From a virus, in IMG/VR virus record IMGVR_UViG_3300042352_000626, positions 1 to 22,882 of that record: 22,882 nt of DNA, one strand, 5' to 3'. The position numbers and the translations under genes were made by a program. Shown here piece after piece: positions 838 to 8,500 of this stretch. Every line of letters begins with the position of its first letter. Position 1 is the stretch's first letter. Under the pieces are notes generated by a model. It was not told the DNA's origin. It saw only the letters and a program-made list of their open reading frames with translations, and ran no database searches.

Positions 838-3125
838 AATATTTTACCAATTAATTTATATTTACAAACGCCTTCGCTCCAGTCCGCACTGACTATATTA
901 CCATAATAAGTATCGGCATCGACGTTCACTTGTATTGTATTATACCAGTTTTTTCTTAAATTAGAAAATTCTGTTATATTCATAGGTACAGAAAAATCAA
1001 TATAGTGTGGCACAAAGTCATCCTGTACATCAATATCATTTACTGTTATATCATTTGAAGCTCTTGTGAAACTTGGCAAATTTATGTAACCTATTCCATC
1101 ATTATAGCTTATTTCTTTTATATTATTTACATTTTTTTCTGTATTTAGATTGGTTTTGCCTTTATAAATACCAAATCCCCATTTATATTCGTGTCTTTTT
1201 AAGTTATAAAGACTTGAATATTTTCTATTTAATCCTAAATCATTTGCTTGATTTTGCTCATAAACAAGGTCTTTGCCTATTGTAGCAGTATTTCTATTGT
1301 CAGAAATAGTTGCCTTATCGCTATCTAATGAAATAATAAATAAACTATTGTCATATTCGTTATTTTCAGAGTCGCTACCAAGACTCAACGCTCTTTTTAT
1401 AATAAATTTTGATGCTATCCACTCACATACTTTTTGATATGTAGCTTTACCTTTTTGCACACCCTCAATTTGATATACATTTTTGCCGTGTAATTCTTCA
1501 TTTGTATCTTTAAAGTCTGCATAACCTATCTCAATAGCTTTATAAAGCATATTTTCAGCTATTGTTAAAGTTACGTCATCATATTCAAGTGAGTAAGTCT
1601 TAAATATATTATCTGTATAAAAATCCTCAATCGTTGCAAGTCTATATGTAGTGTTCAATGAATTATCATAAAAAATTCCCAATCCAAGACCAGTCATTTT
1701 TTCTAAATTATCAAAGAATTTTGAGGCCGTTAGTTTAAACTTATCTCTATTTGCTTTATTTCTTAAAATATCACCTCTAGTTAAATATAAGTCATCGTAT
1801 TTTGGCTCATTAAGTTCGTTATAATCAATTCCAACAAATAATTCATTTGCTATTGTAGATGCTTTGTAAGCACTTATTTTAGTAGATGCTGACTCTACGT
1901 CCGACATATTATTAAAAACTGAATTTGTTACGTTTTTATTAGTTATGTACTCAATATCAATAGTTCTATTTATATCAATTCCAATATCATTATATTGAAA
2001 TACAGCTACAGGTGTCCCAACAATATCATTTACTGTTTTTAAATCAAAAGAATATTGAATCCATAAACTATCTCCTTTTTCTATTGGTAATTCAATAATA
2101 TTGTTAAGAAATGGAGTTAATGGATTTACTAATGGAATACTTGTTAATCCAGTTCCTAATGGGTTTTGTGTTTTTACTGTATTACCACTTAATATTGTTA
2201 TTTTTGTATATTTTGGACTTTCGTATCTTCTACCTACTGTTATAATTTCTTTAAAATTTAATATTTGGCCTCTAAAATTTATACCTCCAACTGAAGTTAT
2301 TCCTAAAGCTGTACTGCCATTAGTTTCTATCTTTAAAATTCCATCTTCTAATTCATTTTTGAATATTTCGGTTGGCTCTGTTACGCTTACATATAAATCA
2401 ATATGATATTGTATAGGAATAGTTCTATCTGGATTTAATTCAATTCTTTCACCACTTGATATTCTAAAATAATCATTAGGCCCTAAAATTTGAACAGTTT
2501 CCGCTGTTAAAGTATTTCCAGTTTCAAGTTCATTTATAGTTGTATCTGTTCTTGGGTTAATTGCAACCCCAAAAATAGGTTGGGGAATACTTTGAAAAAT
2601 AGTAACACTACCATTCCATCTATAGTCAAAATCTACAGCATATAGTTGCCCATCTTCTTTATATGGCCTTTCCCTTAATGTACTTTTATTTGCGTGATAT
2701 TGATATTTAATATTTAAATTTCTTACATAAACATCCTCAGCATCGACTTCTGGTATTTCTTTTTCTACTTCTAAAAGGTCTTTTAAGTTACCTACTGCAT
2801 TATCCTCTACCAATCCAATCTGTATTGTTTCAGTAGTTTGTTTGTATTTTGAAAAATCTAATTTAAAAGTAAAGGCTGTTTCTATGTTATTGCAAGTTTC
2901 TGAAATAACAAGATAGCCAACGCCATCTACAAAAGCTCTCTCATATTCCGATTTTAAAGCATCATATCCACTACCACAATAAAATGTAAGGGTAACTTTG
3001 GCCTCTACTTTAAAACCATTATAAGGAACGTCGCGGTCATAACCTATCTGTATTTTATCCAAGCCATCTGGTTGGTCTAAAAAATCTATATTATTTCCGT
3101 TTATGTTTAATTCGACTAATTGCAT
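834..3125 (-). CDS. Large tail protein, probable tail-tip/hub component, 763 aa
   Basis: This gene encodes 763 residues, almost entirely beta-rich with many Asn/Thr/Asp turns (MQLVELNINGNNIDFLDQPD, KVEAKVTLTFYCGSGYDALK). The middle is helical (ISAYKASTIANELFVGIDYN, KFFDNLEKMTGLGLGIFYDN), and a C-terminal strand region ends WSEGVCKYKLIGKIL. It is the first structural gene after the tape measure once the cassette is set aside, where long-tailed phages encode distal-tail and hub proteins. I cannot point to a specific domain, so the role is from position. The stop overlaps the next ATG (ATGA). Confidence 0.7.
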   Translation of the reverse strand: MQLVELNINGNNIDFLDQPDGLDKIQIGYDRDVPYNGFKVEAKVTLTFYCGSGYDALKSEYERAFVDGVGYLVISETCNNIETAFTFKLDFSKYKQTTETIQIGLVEDNAVGNLKDLLEVEKEIPEVDAEDVYVRNLNIKYQYHANKSTLRERPYKEDGQLYAVDFDYRWNGSVTIFQSIPQPIFGVAINPRTDTTINELETGNTLTAETVQILGPNDYFRISSGERIELNPDRTIPIQYHIDLYVSVTEPTEIFKNELEDGILKIETNGSTALGITSVGGINFRGQILNFKEIITVGRRYESPKYTKITILSGNTVKTQNPLGTGLTSIPLVNPLTPFLNNIIELPIEKGDSLWIQYSFDLKTVNDIVGTPVAVFQYNDIGIDINRTIDIEYITNKNVTNSVFNNMSDVESASTKISAYKASTIANELFVGIDYNELNEPKYDDLYLTRGDILRNKANRDKFKLTASKFFDNLEKMTGLGLGIFYDNSLNTTYRLATIEDFYTDNIFKTYSLEYDDVTLTIAENMLYKAIEIGYADFKDTNEELHGKNVYQIEGVQKGKATYQKVCEWIASKFIIKRALSLGSDSENNEYDNSLFIISLDSDKATISDNRNTATIGKDLVYEQNQANDLGLNRKYSSLYNLKRHEYKWGFGIYKGKTNLNTEKNVNNIKEISYNDGIGYINLPSFTRASNDITVNDIDVQDDFVPHYIDFSVPMNITEFSNLRKNWYNTIQVNVDADTYYGNIVSADWSEGVCKYKLIGKIL

Positions 3126-3129
3126 TGTG

Positions 3130-3137
3130 CAAATTTA
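3130..3137 (-). promoter_or_regulatory. -7 element TAAATTTG, possible leaderless tail promoter
   Basis: TAAATTTG (3137-3130) matches TAnnTTTG and ends 4 bases before ATG 3125 (TTTGCACAATG), as at 13310. This would restart transcription of the tail genes past the two terminators and the cassette. No TTG is seen at the expected -33 position. Confidence 0.5.
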
Positions 3138-3520
3138 ATCATTTTTTTACTATTTTTTTATTTTATTTCATTATTGAGCATAGAAATCCTATTACTTCCT
3201 AGAACTATAACTTTGTTTTAAATTAAAAATATAAATTAAAAACAAGAATAATTTTAAAAAGTTTTTGGTAAAGTTGCTAAAACCTACCTAGCAATTAAAG
3301 CATTTGTGCTTCCTACCTCATTCCAAGGTATGTACATAGAACTACAAGCTGTACATTTTTCACTCACTACATTTTCCTTTCGGGTTCTAGTCGCTAGTTG
3401 TTAAGGATAAAACAGAGCTAGACTTTTATATAGTGTCTTTAATTACTACTTTATTTTATATTCTAAATCTATTTAAACAATTTTTGAATGGTATTGAGTA
3501 GAACCTTAAATTTAAAGCAT
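3138..3520 (-). other. Non-coding island with consecutive hairpins (candidate structured RNA or recombination element)
   Basis: No convincing gene lies here. Four hairpins follow one another at 3274-3356: ATGTAC/GTACAT (arms 3330-3335 and 3351-3356), TACCT/AGGTA (3314-3330), AAGCA/TGCTT (3298-3311) and TTGCTA/TAGCAA (3274-3294). About 3270-3425 is visibly richer in G and C than the flanks. CTAG occurs several times, and TAGAACTA is repeated directly at 3200 and 3337. Both strands have ATG-less open stretches of about 35-45 codons here. Strand is given as minus to match the neighbours; it is not established. Confidence 0.5.
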
Positions 3521-3555
3521 AAAAAAAGCCTATCAAAGGTAGAGCTTCAATAGGC
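3521..3555 (-). terminator. Rho-independent terminator closing the cassette
   Basis: On the minus strand GCCTATTGAAG (3555-3545) pairs with CTTTGATAGGC (3538-3528), with two wobble pairs and a 6-base loop. Seven T follow (3527-3521). It ends transcription from the cassette and separates it from the tail genes downstream. Confidence 0.88.
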
Positions 3556-3621
3556 GTTATAAAAAAAGACTTAAACAAAGTCGAATTTTAAAATCATTAT
3601 CTCTACTCTACTAAAGATTTG

Positions 3622-3629
3622 CAAAGATA
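3622..3629 (-). promoter_or_regulatory. Orphan -7 element TATCTTTG after the ParB-like gene
   Basis: TATCTTTG (3629-3622) is a perfect match to TAnnTTTG, just past the ParB-like stop at 3640. The -33 position reads TTA rather than TTG. A transcript from here would end at the terminator at 3521-3555, giving an RNA of roughly 90 bases without a clear open frame. Confidence 0.4.
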
Positions 3630-3639
3630 ATACTTTTTT

Positions 3640-4389
3640 TTAATATCTTAAATTTATTTTTTCTCTTCTTCTAAAATTATAAATTTCCTCAATTAAAGCT
3701 ATGTATTGGCTAGAATTTACACAATCTACTAACTGGTTCTGCTGGTATTGTAATTTTTGTATAAACTCATCAAAATTAAAGTTTTTATTTTTAAATAAAC
3801 TAATCATTGCATATACAAAAGCTCTTCTTTTATATCCTTTGTAATATTTAGATATTAATTCTATTTTTTGTGCCATATTGCAACATTCGCTATAATTAAC
3901 TACTTTGAAATTTCCTTTAAAAAATTCTTTCATATTGTCTGTCTTTACATATATGTTACCTCCAGATAATATACTTACATTTTCTCTTGTACCAAATCCA
4001 TATCTTTGTTTAAAATTTCTATAAAGAATATAGTCAGAATAACCTAGTTTACAATATGCCTCCAAATAGTCATCAGCACTCCAAGTTTTTGAATTTGCAT
4101 TTAATATATGTACTTCGTTAAGGCCATAACCTTGGCAAATAACATAGTTTAAAGGTAAGTTTAATTCTTTAATAATTTCAAACCTGTGTTGTCCATCAAT
4201 TATCTCATACTTCTCATTAACTGTAATGATTGTAAATAAATAATTATCTGACATTGATTTTTTTAATCTATTAATATGTAATAGATTTTTATTCCTATTT
4301 CCATCTATTGATTTAAATAGTGAATAATCAGTTGTAGTGTGAACTTGGTTGTCTTTTTTTACGATTGGTTCATTTTTAAATTGGTTCAT
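3640..4389 (-). CDS. ParB/sulfiredoxin-fold (ParB-like nuclease domain) protein
   Basis: I chose ATG 4389 (249 residues), because the longer frame from 4536 runs through the lipoprotein gene, while 4389 has an A-rich leader matching the one before the lipoprotein. Residues about 15-90 form the ParB/Srx domain: a DYSLFKSIDGNRNKNLLHIN segment (VxxLxxxxxNR-like), then YEIIDGQHRFEIIKELNLP, with the conserved (I)DGQHR motif. The remaining 150 residues are helical and basic, with the motif NSKTWSADDYLEAYCKLG just after the domain. Such phage proteins may bind DNA, hydrolyse CTP or nick DNA; none is proven here. It is the last gene of the cassette. Confidence 0.85.
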   Translation of the reverse strand: MNQFKNEPIVKKDNQVHTTTDYSLFKSIDGNRNKNLLHINRLKKSMSDNYLFTIITVNEKYEIIDGQHRFEIIKELNLPLNYVICQGYGLNEVHILNANSKTWSADDYLEAYCKLGYSDYILYRNFKQRYGFGTRENVSILSGGNIYVKTDNMKEFFKGNFKVVNYSECCNMAQKIELISKYYKGYKRRAFVYAMISLFKNKNFNFDEFIQKLQYQQNQLVDCVNSSQYIALIEEIYNFRRREKINLRY

Positions 4390-4420
4390 TTTTTTTAAAT
4401 TTAATTGGTTAATAATTTTT

Positions 4421-4600
4421 TTAAAATTTGCAACTTGGATATTTGCTTTTATATTTTTGTTGTATAATTTTAATTTTTTCAATATTACTTCCAGCGTGTT
4501 TAACTTCACCTTCGTATTTTTTAAAAACTTCTGCACAATTTACTTCTTCTTTTGAGCAGCTTGCTAATAAAATAGCAGCAAATAATAATAATTTTTTCAT
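4421..4600 (-). CDS. Phage-encoded lipoprotein, 59 aa, probably surface-exported
   Basis: ATG 4600 to TAA 4421 encodes 59 residues. MKKLLLFAAILLASC is a textbook type II signal peptide with lipobox LAS-Cys15. After cleavage the mature protein starts Cys-Ser-Lys-Glu-Glu. Lys followed by two acidic residues just after the lipidated Cys matches the export signal that carries lipoproteins to the outer face of the outer membrane in Capnocytophaga and related flavobacteria. The mature part is 45 residues, with Cys22 and Cys57 free to form a disulphide. It lies between the zinc-finger and ParB-like genes, 10 bases after the former, with an A-rich leader before the ATG. Small phage lipoproteins often block receptors against superinfection; that role is inferred here. 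Confidence 0.85.
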   Translation of the reverse strand: MKKLLLFAAILLASCSKEEVNCAEVFKKYEGEVKHAGSNIEKIKIIQQKYKSKYPSCKF

Positions 4601-4610
4601 TTTTTTTAGT

Positions 4611-4802
4611 TTAATTTGTTAATAATTTATTTTTTAATCGGTATTGTTTTTGGTATTCTTTTTGATACTCTCTTATAATATCTTTGTTTTTTTCTTTATA
4701 TTCTTTTTGATGTTTTGCGTGGCATTGATTACAAATATTCCTAATTCTGCTAGCATAGTTATTTTTCTTAAATTCAATTTGACATTTAATACAAACTTTC
4801 AT
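4611..4802 (-). CDS. Small zinc-finger protein, 63 aa
   Basis: The 63 residues carry CIKC (Cys4, Cys7) and CNQC (Cys24, Cys27) with a following His (CHAKH). This four-cysteine zinc ribbon resembles the N-terminal knuckle of phage HNH and NinG-like proteins. The second half is a very basic, Tyr/Lys/Gln-repeating helix (YKEKNKDIIREYQKEYQKQY), suggesting nucleic-acid contact. No HNH catalytic residues are present, so this is a DNA- or RNA-binding module rather than a nuclease. Confidence 0.72.
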   Translation of the reverse strand: MKVCIKCQIEFKKNNYASRIRNICNQCHAKHQKEYKEKNKDIIREYQKEYQKQYRLKNKLLTN

Positions 4803-5022
4803 TATAAATTAATTTTTCAAGTTTATTGATAATATCCATTTGTTTTTTACTTACTAGTATAGCGTAGTCATTATCTTTAAATATATCTACATCTTTGCTA
4901 GTAATTTCAATTGTTTTTATATCTCCATTGCCATTCTTTGCAAGCTCAATTACTTTTGCAAAATCATCATCCCAAATTGCGTGGCACATTTCGCGTCCAG
5001 TTGCTATATGTATTTTATCCAT
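4786..5022 (-). CDS. Hypothetical cassette protein, 78 aa
   Basis: Function unknown. The 78 residues show an alternating helix/strand pattern: MDKIHIATGREMCHAIWDDD, FAKVIELAKNGNGDIKTIEI, DVDIFKDNDYAILVSKKQMD, and an amphipathic C-terminal helix. The acidic WDDDFAKVIELAKNG stretch recalls small alpha/beta regulatory folds, but I cannot name one. It overlaps the next gene by 17 bases and so is co-translated with it. Confidence 0.68.
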   Translation of the reverse strand: MDKIHIATGREMCHAIWDDDFAKVIELAKNGNGDIKTIEITSKDVDIFKDNDYAILVSKKQMDIINKLEKLIYNESLY

Positions 5023-5046
5023 TTTTTTGTTTATTTTAAAAAGTTT

Positions 5047-5283
5047 TTAATATCTTCCATATTTTGCTTTTTGCAATTTATCTTGTAGGTTCCTAACTTC
5101 ATTTAAAAGTTCTTTTGATATACCATAAGTATTTCCATAATCTTCAAACTCAATACGATTTATATGAGATAAATTATTAAGAACATTTATTGCGTTTTCA
5201 ATTGCAATATCTTGTTTAGCAATAACTAGTACTTGATTAATTGCTACATTATTTTCTTTTGTTACTAACTTTGAAATTTCCAT
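5047..5283 (-). CDS. Hypothetical cassette protein, 78 aa
   Basis: I chose ATG 5283, because the in-frame ATG at 5346 lies in the -33 promoter element. The 78 residues begin MEISKLVTKENNVAINQVLV, then a helical middle (AIENAINVLNNLSHINRIEF) and an end rich in Lys/Arg (LRDLQ-like helix LNEVRNLQDKLQKAKYGRY). It is soluble, with no motif recognised. It is the first gene of the five-gene cassette between the tape measure and tail genes, directly downstream of an early-type promoter. Confidence 0.7.
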   Translation of the reverse strand: MEISKLVTKENNVAINQVLVIAKQDIAIENAINVLNNLSHINRIEFEDYGNTYGISKELLNEVRNLQDKLQKAKYGRY

Positions 5284-5316
5284 TTTTTTATTATTTAGTT
5301 GTTTAAAATTGTACTG

Positions 5317-5346
5317 CAAAGATAATAGGTATTTTACAAATGTCAA
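5317..5346 (-). promoter_or_regulatory. Cassette promoter with early-type palindromic -33 region
   Basis: TTGACA (5346-5341) and TATCTTTG (5324-5317) lie 19 bases apart counted from the TTG, on the minus strand. The inverted repeat TTGACA-TT-TGTAAA (5333-5346) overlaps the -33 element and is nearly the same as those at 20020-20033 and 21500-21513. It sits 33 bases upstream of ATG 5283. Confidence 0.85.
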
Positions 5347-5406
5347 TAGTAAAATTAAAAAAAGTGTATTTTTTTTAAAAAATTAATCTATATTAAGAAT
5401 ATAAAT

Positions 5407-5443
5407 AAAAAAACCCAGCCAAAATATTGCTACCGTGACTGGG
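5407..5443 (-). terminator. Rho-independent terminator after the tape measure gene
   Basis: On the minus strand CCCAGTCA (5443-5436) pairs with TGGCTGGG (5421-5414), with one G-T wobble, around a 14-base loop. It is followed directly by seven T (5413-5407). It closes the tail transcript about 90 bases past the tape measure stop and insulates the cassette promoter at 5317-5346. Confidence 0.85.
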
Positions 5444-5535
5444 AAAATGAAAAAAGAAAAAGAGATTACAAAGTTAATTCTTTTTTTTGATACTTTTTAA
5501 AATAGTTTGCAAGCAATTTAGGACTAGTTCGTTCA

Positions 5536-8500
5536 TTATAAAGTAAATTTATCCTTTTTAATTGCAGTTACAATCTCATTTGTATTTATTTTATTGTCCT
5601 TTCGCATCGCCTCTAATGTTTTTGATATAGTTCTATTGATTATTTTGCTTTCTATATCATCAATTCTTTTTTGCGACCTTTGTATAACCTCTGCCTCTTT
5701 TTGCTCAATAGCGGGCAAAATATAGTGTGATTTGATATACTTATCTACATCACCATTTACTAATGAGCTAACTAGTCCAAGATTTTGGCCTGTAGCTTGT
5801 GCTGGTATTACCGATTCCCCTTTTGAAAGCCAAGCCAAGTTGCTATCACTTGTACCTGTACCAACGCCACCAACAACACCATTGAACCCTACAACCCCAT
5901 CTTTGAATTTTGGAGTAGGTTGTGATGCGATTAAGGCAATTTGTGCAGCACCAATAGCAGCTGCAATAGCTGAAAATGGTAAACCTCCAGTAGTAGGTGA
6001 CGCAACTACTGACCTAATAACAGCTTCAGCAGTAGCTATAACAACTCTTAAAATAGATGCACGTTTGTCAGCTTCAAATTGTTTTCGTTTTTCTGCTTTG
6101 ATTTTTTGGTCATACTTTTGTCTAATAATTTCTTTTTTTTGCTCATTATCTCCAGCAATTGCTAATTCAGCTTCTTTTTCTGCATTTAATTGAGCAATCC
6201 TTTCTTCACTTGCAGCTTTTTCGCTTGCACTTACCATATCAATTGCGGCCATTGCTGCTGTACTTGCTGCAGCTGAACCAGCTAATATTGCGTCTTTTGT
6301 AGCTTGTTCTTTTTCCTCTTTTGTTGCACCTTCTTTATTTATTTGTTTTATAGAAGCTGCAAAACCTTCAACTTGACTTTTAAATTTACTAACAGATTGA
6401 GGATTAAAACCTAATTGAATTAATAAGCCATTATTTGCAAATTCGAATAATTCATCAAATTGAGCTTTTAACCTTGCTGCCCTTTCTTGCTCTTGTTTTA
6501 TTTCTTGTGCATTTTTTTCATTACGATATTTTGTATCTTGAGCAGCTAATTGTTTATTTAAATCTTCATTTGAAGCTATTATATTTTTAATTAACTCACT
6601 ATCCGCACTAACTTCAGCATCAAGTAGTTTTTGTTTATAAATATCATTTGCAAGTATCTTTGCACTAATTATATCTCTTTCAGCTTGTATAATTGCTAAT
6701 TTTTTAGCATTTTCGGCTTCTTTTGTAGTAGTTACCTCGTCTTCTATTTGTTTTTTTCTGTCCTCAAATGCCTTTACCAATGTACTTTTTTCGCCTAATA
6801 TAGAATCAATTTTATTTTTAACAGAATCTCTATCAGCGTCTTTTTGCAATTGAATAATATCGTTAAAAGTTTTATTAGCAAAACTTAATTCTTTATCTAA
6901 AATATCTTTATTAACTAAAAATCCATTTTTATCTCTAACTTTAGCTTCTTCCGCTAATCTATTATTAGAGTCTGTTATTATTTGTAAAATGTCATCTTGA
7001 TATTTTATTTCAAGTTGCTTTAGTTTTTCTTTTTCTTTTGCTATTTTTTGTGGGTCTTCTTTTCTTGCCTCTAAATCAGCAATGTAATTTTTTTGATTTA
7101 CTATATCTAAATTAGATAAATCTTTGATAGCTTTTTCCCTAACTTTTATTATCTCATCCAATTCCTCTTTTTCTAATTGAGCAGCTGTTTTGCCTTTTTT
7201 GCTTTTTCCTGCTTTTTCTGATACCATTTGCGCTTCACCAGTTACAGACGTTGTAGCACCAGAAGTAGTTGTAGCTAAATTTTTTTGCTGTTCTTTTTGC
7301 GTTTGTTTTGCGGCCGTTGCAAATACCGTTTTAGCTTTATCTAAATTTTTATTTAGTTTATTAATATCTATATTAAACATTGATGCAAAAGGTTCTACTA
7401 TTTTAAGCATTCCTTTTACAAAATCAATCAAATTATTTTTAATTTTGCCAAATGTATTATTAAATATCGTAGACAATCCTTTAATATAATCTCCAACGAC
7501 ACCAATTGCACCTTTAAAATCACCTCTAAAAATAGCACCCCAAAAGTCTACAAATGTTTGAACTTGTAATTTAATTATTTGAAGCGCGCCAACTAAAACA
7601 TCTTTAAAAGTTTTTATTCCTAATAATACATATTCTAATGCTGCTCTAACTTGACTCATTGCAATATCAAACACTTTTGCAAATATAGAAGCACCATTTG
7701 AAACTCCACCAAAAGAACTACCTATTTCAGCAAATACATCTATAATAGCAACTCCTACTTCTTTTACTGTATTCCATAAAGCCATAAACAAATCACCTAT
7801 TCTAGCTACATATTGACTTTCGCTAAAAAATGTGGATATACCACTACCAAGTGCTGCAAAAAAGTTACCTATATATGGCAAAGCTTCAGCAATTACATCT
7901 ATAATTGGAGTAAATACATTTAATATTCCACTACCTCCGGCAAGAAATGCCCCAAAACTGTTTGACAATCTTGTTAAAGCGCCTTGAAATGTGTTGGTAT
8001 TTGTTTGGGCTTGTGTTAAAGCCACGCCTTGCTCACCAACCGCTGCTGTATATTGTTTAAATTTGTCTGTACTATCTAATAATATTTGACCAGCAGTAAC
8101 TGATTCCAATCCAAATAACTTGGTTAATTCTTGAGAACGTTTAATAGGGTCTTGTATATTAGCAAATTCATTTTTTGTTTGCTCTAATGCAGCATTAATA
8201 TCAAATTGACCATTTACATATCCCTTTCCAGCATTTGCTAGTTTTAATATAATATTTCTTAATTGTGTACCAGCTTCAGCCCCTTTTATTTGTTTGTCTC
8301 CTAAAGTTTCTTGTAATGCTACAGCTTGCTCTACACTTACATTGTTGGCTTTAGCTACAGCACCAAACTTCTCCAATCCTTGGGCCAAATCTGGAATAGC
8401 TACAGCTCCTGCTTTTGAACCAGCTGCAAGCACATCAATAACTCTTGCACTTTCTTCAGCTCCAAAATTAAATTGATTTAATGTACCAGTCAAAGAGTTT

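Follow-up and report, generated by a model that had tools for sequence, protein, structure and literature searches.

The locus and its setting

The stretch of DNA analysed here (the window), a linear viral record of 22.9 kb, comes from a Bacteroidetes, Flavobacterium-like, siphophage-type phage, with nearly all of its genes on the minus strand: replication genes, terminase, tail genes, the tape measure gene, a slot, and a 763-aa tail gene. A second contig (G001, 25.4 kb; 99.99% identity with the window phage over 13 kb) adds genes for the head, lysis and replication; neither the window nor 12.4 kb more of the same phage (L090) contained a recognised integrase or repressor, though the genome is incomplete. 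An earlier note on this DNA had described the slot as a moron-like cassette of five genes, with its own promoter and terminator, interrupting tail genes that are normally continuous. All five genes do lie between the two tail genes on the minus strand, and their positions are collected in Table 1 together with those of two RNA elements, here called leader A and RNA B, that follow them.

Table 1. Slot, adjoining RNA elements and related features; positions refer to the window unless a locus prefix is given, and L001 is the closest relative.
Feature	Position	Strand	Remarks
Tape measure gene	9102-5536	-	
Intrinsic terminator 3' of tape measure gene	5443-5407	-	8-bp stem, 14-nt loop, T7
Box TTAATATAGATTAA upstream of early promoter	5396-5383	-	
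Early-type promoter TTG-N19-TATCTTTG	5346-5317	-	exact Bacteroidetes sigma-A type; present in L001 too
78-aa gene	5283-5047	-	missing from L001 slot
78-aa gene	5022-4786	-	sole slot gene also in L001, 82% aa identity
63-aa Zn-motif protein	4802-4611	-	phrog_1035, E=4.9e-5
59-aa lipoprotein	4600-4421	-	
249-aa ParB-like protein (predicted ParB/Srx fold, DGQHR motif)	4389-3640	-	true ATG at 4389
Leader A promoter, -7 element TATCTTTG	3629-3622	-	kept in L001
Leader RNA A	3617-3521	-	z = -3.49
Leader A 5' hairpin	3618-3599	-	contains X = GUAGAG (3611-3606)
Leader A second hairpin	3582-3568	-	
Leader A terminator hairpin	3555-3528	-	X' = CUCUAC (3544-3539), then T7
Conserved RNA B	3448-3180	-	makes up most of the 390 bp past leader A
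RNA B helix P1	3448-3437/3300-3289	-	
RNA B helix P2	3435-3428/3372-3365	-	
RNA B CCCGAAAGG	3384-3376	-	
RNA B P5; P6; 3' hairpin	3356-3330; 3329-3315; 3208-3180	-	
Tail-gene promoter TAAATTTG	3137-3130 (feature 3137-3123)	-	predicted start = A of ATG or one base before
763-aa tail gene, next after slot	3125-834	-	
RNA B homologues	L014:17400-17620; L085:1565-1800; L087:3762-3540	- (L087)	
Unrelated antisense slot gene (157-159 aa)	L013:7996-8469; L014:12685-13158; L091:271-747	-; -; +	
DUF805b RNA	L044:7400-7432; L057:5194-5226; L047:1239-1271; L043:7935-7967; L048:4207-4239		

A terminator and an early-type promoter open the cassette

The terminator that had been proposed 3' of the tape measure gene is real, and in L001 another sequence (CCCTCATA/TATGGGGG) adopts the same fold at the same place. 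The loop limit of our terminator scan leaves it undetected; of the two matches that the scan returned within 2400-6600, the stronger is the hairpin at 3555-3521.

The proposed early-type promoter was likewise confirmed, both by its fit to the TTG-N19-TATCTTTG pattern (5 occurrences in the window vs. 1.0 expected; TATCTTTGC occurs 9 times vs. 0.44 expected) and by two near copies in the early region. It aligns over ~120 bp with those early-region promoters, near 20.0 kb and 21.5 kb, and the three have an upstream box (TTAATNTAGATTAA) and a leader in common; judged by these shared elements, the cassette promoter is a member of the phage's predicted early promoter class. The box stands ~40-50 nt 5' of early promoters (5396-5281, 20085-19968 and 21554-21483, minus strand; L090 about 6845-6865), and is possibly a site for a phage-encoded or host regulator.

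At the other end, the hairpin at 3521-3555 exists, but apparently not as a plain cassette terminator: it would stop the cassette mRNA, yet it is the 3' hairpin of leader A. Because it thus ends a separate transcription unit with a promoter of its own (3629-3622), we put the right edge of the moron-like cassette at about 3640 and its extent at 5346-3640.

Products of the cassette genes

The ParB-like assignment was borne out by a match to phrog_12305 (E=4e-31), a profile match to the PDB ParB entry 4umk (E=0.002) and a predicted structure (AlphaFold, pLDDT 85) with a Foldseek match to 6sdk (E=1.3e-4), and we assign the protein a predicted ParB/Srx N-terminal fold. Among the genes of the window, none was named as a ParA partner. 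The gene described earlier as a zinc finger does encode a Zn motif, but not a stand-alone zinc finger; its product is the N-terminal part of the endonuclease VII/HNH-like family without the nuclease part, and looks like a remnant (a full-length relative of 211 aa is encoded at L103:5001-5636).

The mature N-terminus of the lipoprotein, C-SKEEV, matches C-X-K-(D/E)2-X, an experimentally defined Bacteroidetes surface-export signal (PMC5080379), and a role at the surface is therefore plausible. This predicted signal agrees with the earlier note's remark that morons often change the host surface, and the lipoprotein, predicted to be surface-exposed, is the most plausible of the cassette's products for such a role. 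Its weak match to phrog_1119 (Cor superinfection exclusion; E=0.0011) begins in the signal peptide and proves nothing. The lipoprotein, the Zn protein and the product of the 5022-4786 gene had no match among 50,697 phage records, and PADLOC returned nothing for the cassette proteins.

The slot is variable but never empty

In the closest relative, a phage ~82% identical to the window phage (L001/L012), the early promoter is kept, the terminator differs in sequence, and the single gene in the slot is homologous to the 78-aa gene at 5022-4786; the 5283-5047 gene and the Zn, lipoprotein and ParB genes are missing. Distant relatives (L013, L014 and G005) carry instead one unrelated gene on the opposite strand, encoding 157 to 159 aa. 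Cassette genes are thus present in some relatives and absent from others at one locus, as is the rule for morons, and this variability, like the family resemblance of the promoters, can be read from the sequences themselves.

Every relative examined has something in the slot, and none has the tape measure and tail genes side by side. The variable content implied by the earlier note's reading was found, adjacency of the two genes in some relatives was not, and its premise of normally continuous tail genes fails for this group. For the same reason, and because the tail gene has its own promoter in relatives too, we regard the slot as a site of accessory-gene exchange, not as a break in an otherwise continuous operon. 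The constant frame, in the window phage and its closest relative, consists of the tape-measure terminator, the early promoter, exchangeable genes, leader RNA A, RNA B and the tail-gene promoter. The region is best described as a variable accessory-gene slot, predicted to be expressed early, at a transcription boundary within the tail module.

The phage has three near copies of its early promoter, the cassette's among them, so the moron-like reading is largely supported: the variable content, the early-class promoter, the upstream terminator and the lipoprotein signal all speak for it. The second terminator does not appear to be a plain one, and expression in lysogeny finds no support: no integrase or repressor was recognised in the part of the genome covered, and the lillamy phages, which carry a related ParB gene, are virulent (PMC7077304).

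A predicted leader RNA follows the cassette

Eleven bases past the ParB stop codon stands a sigma-A -7 element, TATCTTTGC (3629-3621), from which leader A would start and run through the hairpin at 3521-3555. A 5' segment, X, and a segment in the terminator loop, X', differ in sequence yet are complementary across the window, L001, L014/L087 and L085 (GTAGAG/CTCTAC, GGGACAAG/CTTGTCCC, GACGAGGTC/GACCTCGTC and GGTAGGTCC/GGACCTACC, respectively). The loop helix of the window's tail copy has only 6 bp and alone is not significant (shuffle 0.068), so the case for this copy rests on its relatives; the other tail-type pairs are significant (shuffle 0.004 to 0.0004).

The X-X' pairing is lengthened in the tail copies by an outer helix of 3 to 6 pairs that involves the 3' arm of the terminator stem, and an antiterminator would therefore be favoured there; the aligned replication copies described below show no such helix, and the covariance model built for them does not match the tail copies. 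Nor does the tail copy have the layout of an attenuator, with no promoter between leader and operon: a further promoter lies past RNA B, and the tail leader therefore need not control the tail gene.

Leader A heads replication operons

The window phage has a second leader A (L090:6918-7035) directly 5' of a DnaD-like helicase-loader gene, with no ParB gene beside it, and replication operons in dozens of viral contigs start with a leader of this kind. A strict scan returned 10 matches in 889 kb (vs. 0, 0, 1 and 1 in shuffled sequence), of which two are the same L020 element and one, in L073, is doubtful. With no replication-leader context seen around it, we did not count the L073 match as a member. 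Isolated virulent flavophage lineages with leader A 5' of replication genes are lillamy (lillamy9-1) with its relatives, and elemoA. In lillamy9-1 (NC_048835, about 14,110) a TATATTTG promoter, with its predicted start 5 nt past the last G, is followed ~100 nt later by a T-run and, ~50 nt further on past the leader, by a small gene; elemoA has the 5' hairpin AGTTATTA-[AGGTGAGAGC]-TAATAACT, and GCTCTCA stands within its terminator. A sample of loci was also drawn by their DUF6291-family replication protein, blind to the RNA; leader A was present in nearly all of their distinct upstream regions, mostly detected by script, while a few (L170, L175, L184 and L186, in which the -7 element departs from TAnnTTTG) were read by eye.

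Among 21 aligned leaders every cell (100%) of the 8-bp loop-loop helix was paired, and its covariation score was 0.594 (vs. 0.153 in shuffles). The helix has 36 doubly changed cells (vs. a shuffled mean of 9.7), a number that 0 of 500 shuffles reached and that is not itself a probability, as the shuffle control keeps relatedness. None of these 21 leaders had a one-sided change in the helix, and sliding the partner by one column lowered the pairing to 31-39%. At least 13 distinct 10-nt loop alleles sit on a near-constant leader scaffold. Hairpin 1 contains G-U intermediates, which indicates selection on the transcribed strand as RNA. A covariance model without the kissing pairs found held-out members and the window phage's replication copy (E 0.005); no Rfam 15 family was matched by leader A, and we found no kissing-loop phage leader in the open-access literature. 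Both the covariation of X with X' and the recurrence of the leader before replication genes are properties of the sequence comparison. Not every subgroup has X in an evident hairpin loop, so the contact may be a kissing loop or a plain pseudoknot.

At the replication copies the start codon lies 0-17 nt past the T-run, and the order is that of an attenuator: promoter, leader, terminator and operon, with no promoter between. In two phages, L023 and L025, and in none elsewhere, a second copy of X (AAAACCGC) stands between the T-run and the start codon of the replication gene, which would let X' base-pair with the translation start as well.

The ParB-like gene and the leader

Many other phages proved in a scan to have leader A directly 3' of their ParB-like gene. 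Across 64 viral loci, the recurrent neighbours of ParB-like genes are mostly replication-type; at ~11 distinct loci ParB is followed by leader A, in most of them with a replication gene next, and at other ParB loci SSB or another gene directly follows. The window phage has ParB directly 5' of its tail-type leader and none at its replication leader, and in L001 the tail leader has no ParB. From these positions we infer that the ParB-like gene moved from a replication leader to the tail leader. The promoter regions of both leader types have AAGTATTATNTTTGC in common (window, L001, L023, L025 and L055), and recombination at the leader promoter is therefore a plausible route.

A second conserved RNA and the tail-gene promoter

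The core of RNA B is 97-99% identical to L001, against ~82% for the flanking genes. Its homologues in L014, L085 and L087 occupy another place, between a 485-aa tail gene and a 191-aa gene, and again lie directly 3' of leader A. In an alignment by eye, the 12 pairs of P1 are kept between the clades through four double and one single consistent changes, while two double changes were counted in P2; P1 appears among the folds predicted for each clade. As the folding energies alone do not mark it (z about -0.3 to -1.1), the support for RNA B comes from its conservation and compensatory changes, by which it is a second predicted conserved noncoding RNA. It matched no Rfam family, its covariance model found only the five sequences from which it was built (two clades), and a scan of the genome collection with the core gave two chance matches in apparently coding regions. 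A 28-codon ORF within 3120-3520 was considered as a small protein and rejected, being lost in L014 whereas P1 and P2 are kept there by compensatory changes.

The tail-gene promoter has the same start spacing in L001. Under a published promoter-start spacing rule (PMC9723704), the predicted start of two TAnnTTTG promoters on the minus strand, 3137-3123 and 13322-13308, falls 5 nt past the last G, on the A of the ATG, and leaderless mRNAs are likely for the tail gene and for the gene at 13310-13017.

Interpretation

Our preferred explanation, to which we give a probability of roughly 0.6, joins a variable early accessory slot with a leader A that acts as a conditional terminator through X-X' contact. 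In it, the 5' segment X, commonly part of a hairpin loop, would pair with X' inside the terminator hairpin, and read-through of this attenuator would depend on that contact. At the replication copies the 0-17 nt past the T-run leave no room for a promoter; expression from the leader promoter therefore requires read-through, and an attenuator is accordingly the simplest reading. The contact is what selection preserves, and it may promote or prevent termination, in cis or beyond. The steady replacement of X and X' by new complementary pairs suggests specificity towards other RNAs, and such rapid, always compensated change would guard each leader from the action of other RNAs. More tentatively, leader A may represent a new class of Bacteroidetes phage leader, found at replication operons and in some late tail regions, whose 8-9 nt hypervariable, allele-like contact sequence would act as a self/non-self address, setting both how far replication operons are read through and how related phages exclude one another.

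That the loops number at least 13 alleles and change only in compensated fashion is also the pattern of antisense incompatibility RNAs, and it raises a reading in which leader A acts in trans: a stable short RNA from a resident phage would pair by its loop with the same leader of an incoming related phage and force early termination of its replication operon, the loop alleles setting specificity. Trans pairing that causes early termination is how P4 CI RNA works, and the second X copy in L023 and L025 fits this reading. We consider it unlikely, since that copy is missing elsewhere, no antisense transcript is known and the carriers include virulent phages (PMC7077304).

The locus could also be a plain moron, in which the five genes have their own promoter, the hairpin at 3521-3555 is an ordinary terminator and the loop complementarity is incidental. 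The promoter and both hairpins are indeed real and the gene content does vary, but this reading is improbable: the hairpin has its own promoter past the last gene, L001 has it although most of the cassette genes are missing there, and the same design with compensated loops recurs 5' of replication genes. More doubtful again is a role for leader A as part of a replication origin (a primer RNA or structured origin DNA) instead of a regulator; its place directly 5' of operons for helicase loader and primase, frequently next to a ParB-like gene, would suit an origin, but late tail regions have A-type RNA too, its hairpin ends in a T-run and the G-U intermediates of hairpin 1 point to RNA. That the five genes are core tail genes of the phage lineage, as their location between two tail genes might suggest, is already refuted by the absence of four of the five from the closest relative and of all from the distant ones.

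Under the preferred reading of slot and conditional terminator, the cassette itself is a set of accessory genes on the phage's own early promoter inside late genes, and such cassettes are already known; the surprising part is the adjoining leader A, an RNA that matches no Rfam family and in which the two contact loops vary together. Loops that in the aligned set never change on one side alone are a strong evolutionary sign of selected RNA-RNA specificity at the starts of replication operons, one that could be tested in culturable virulent flavophages (lillamy on Flavobacterium LMO9).

Comparison with known systems

Like phage morons of the lambda type, the cassette has its own promoter, variable genes at a constant place and insulation by an upstream terminator; unlike them, it has a promoter that is a copy of the phage's early one, its downstream hairpin belongs to another RNA unit, and its content is nested and variable. 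The replication copies of leader A share with attenuators a promoter, a structured leader, an intrinsic terminator and a start codon past the T-run, but the 5' end of leader A would pair inside the terminator through hypervariable, compensated sequences, and it has no known ligand or leader peptide.

P4 CI and plasmid loop RNAs (ColE1, IncFII) control replication operons. In these RNAs, and in the c4 RNA of P1/P7, which confers antisense immunity (PMC12197685), short loops vary among relatives while pairing is kept, as in leader A. Leader A differs from all of them in carrying its complement in the same RNA, with no separate antisense promoter seen, and in having virulent carriers. The second X copy of L023 and L025 resembles seqA/seqB/seqC of P4. 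Finally, another small structured element, the DUF805b RNA (RF02914), accompanies ParB-like genes in five related phages (Table 1); it is 33 nt long and lies directly 5' of ParB, whereas leader A, which matches no Rfam family, lies 3' of it.
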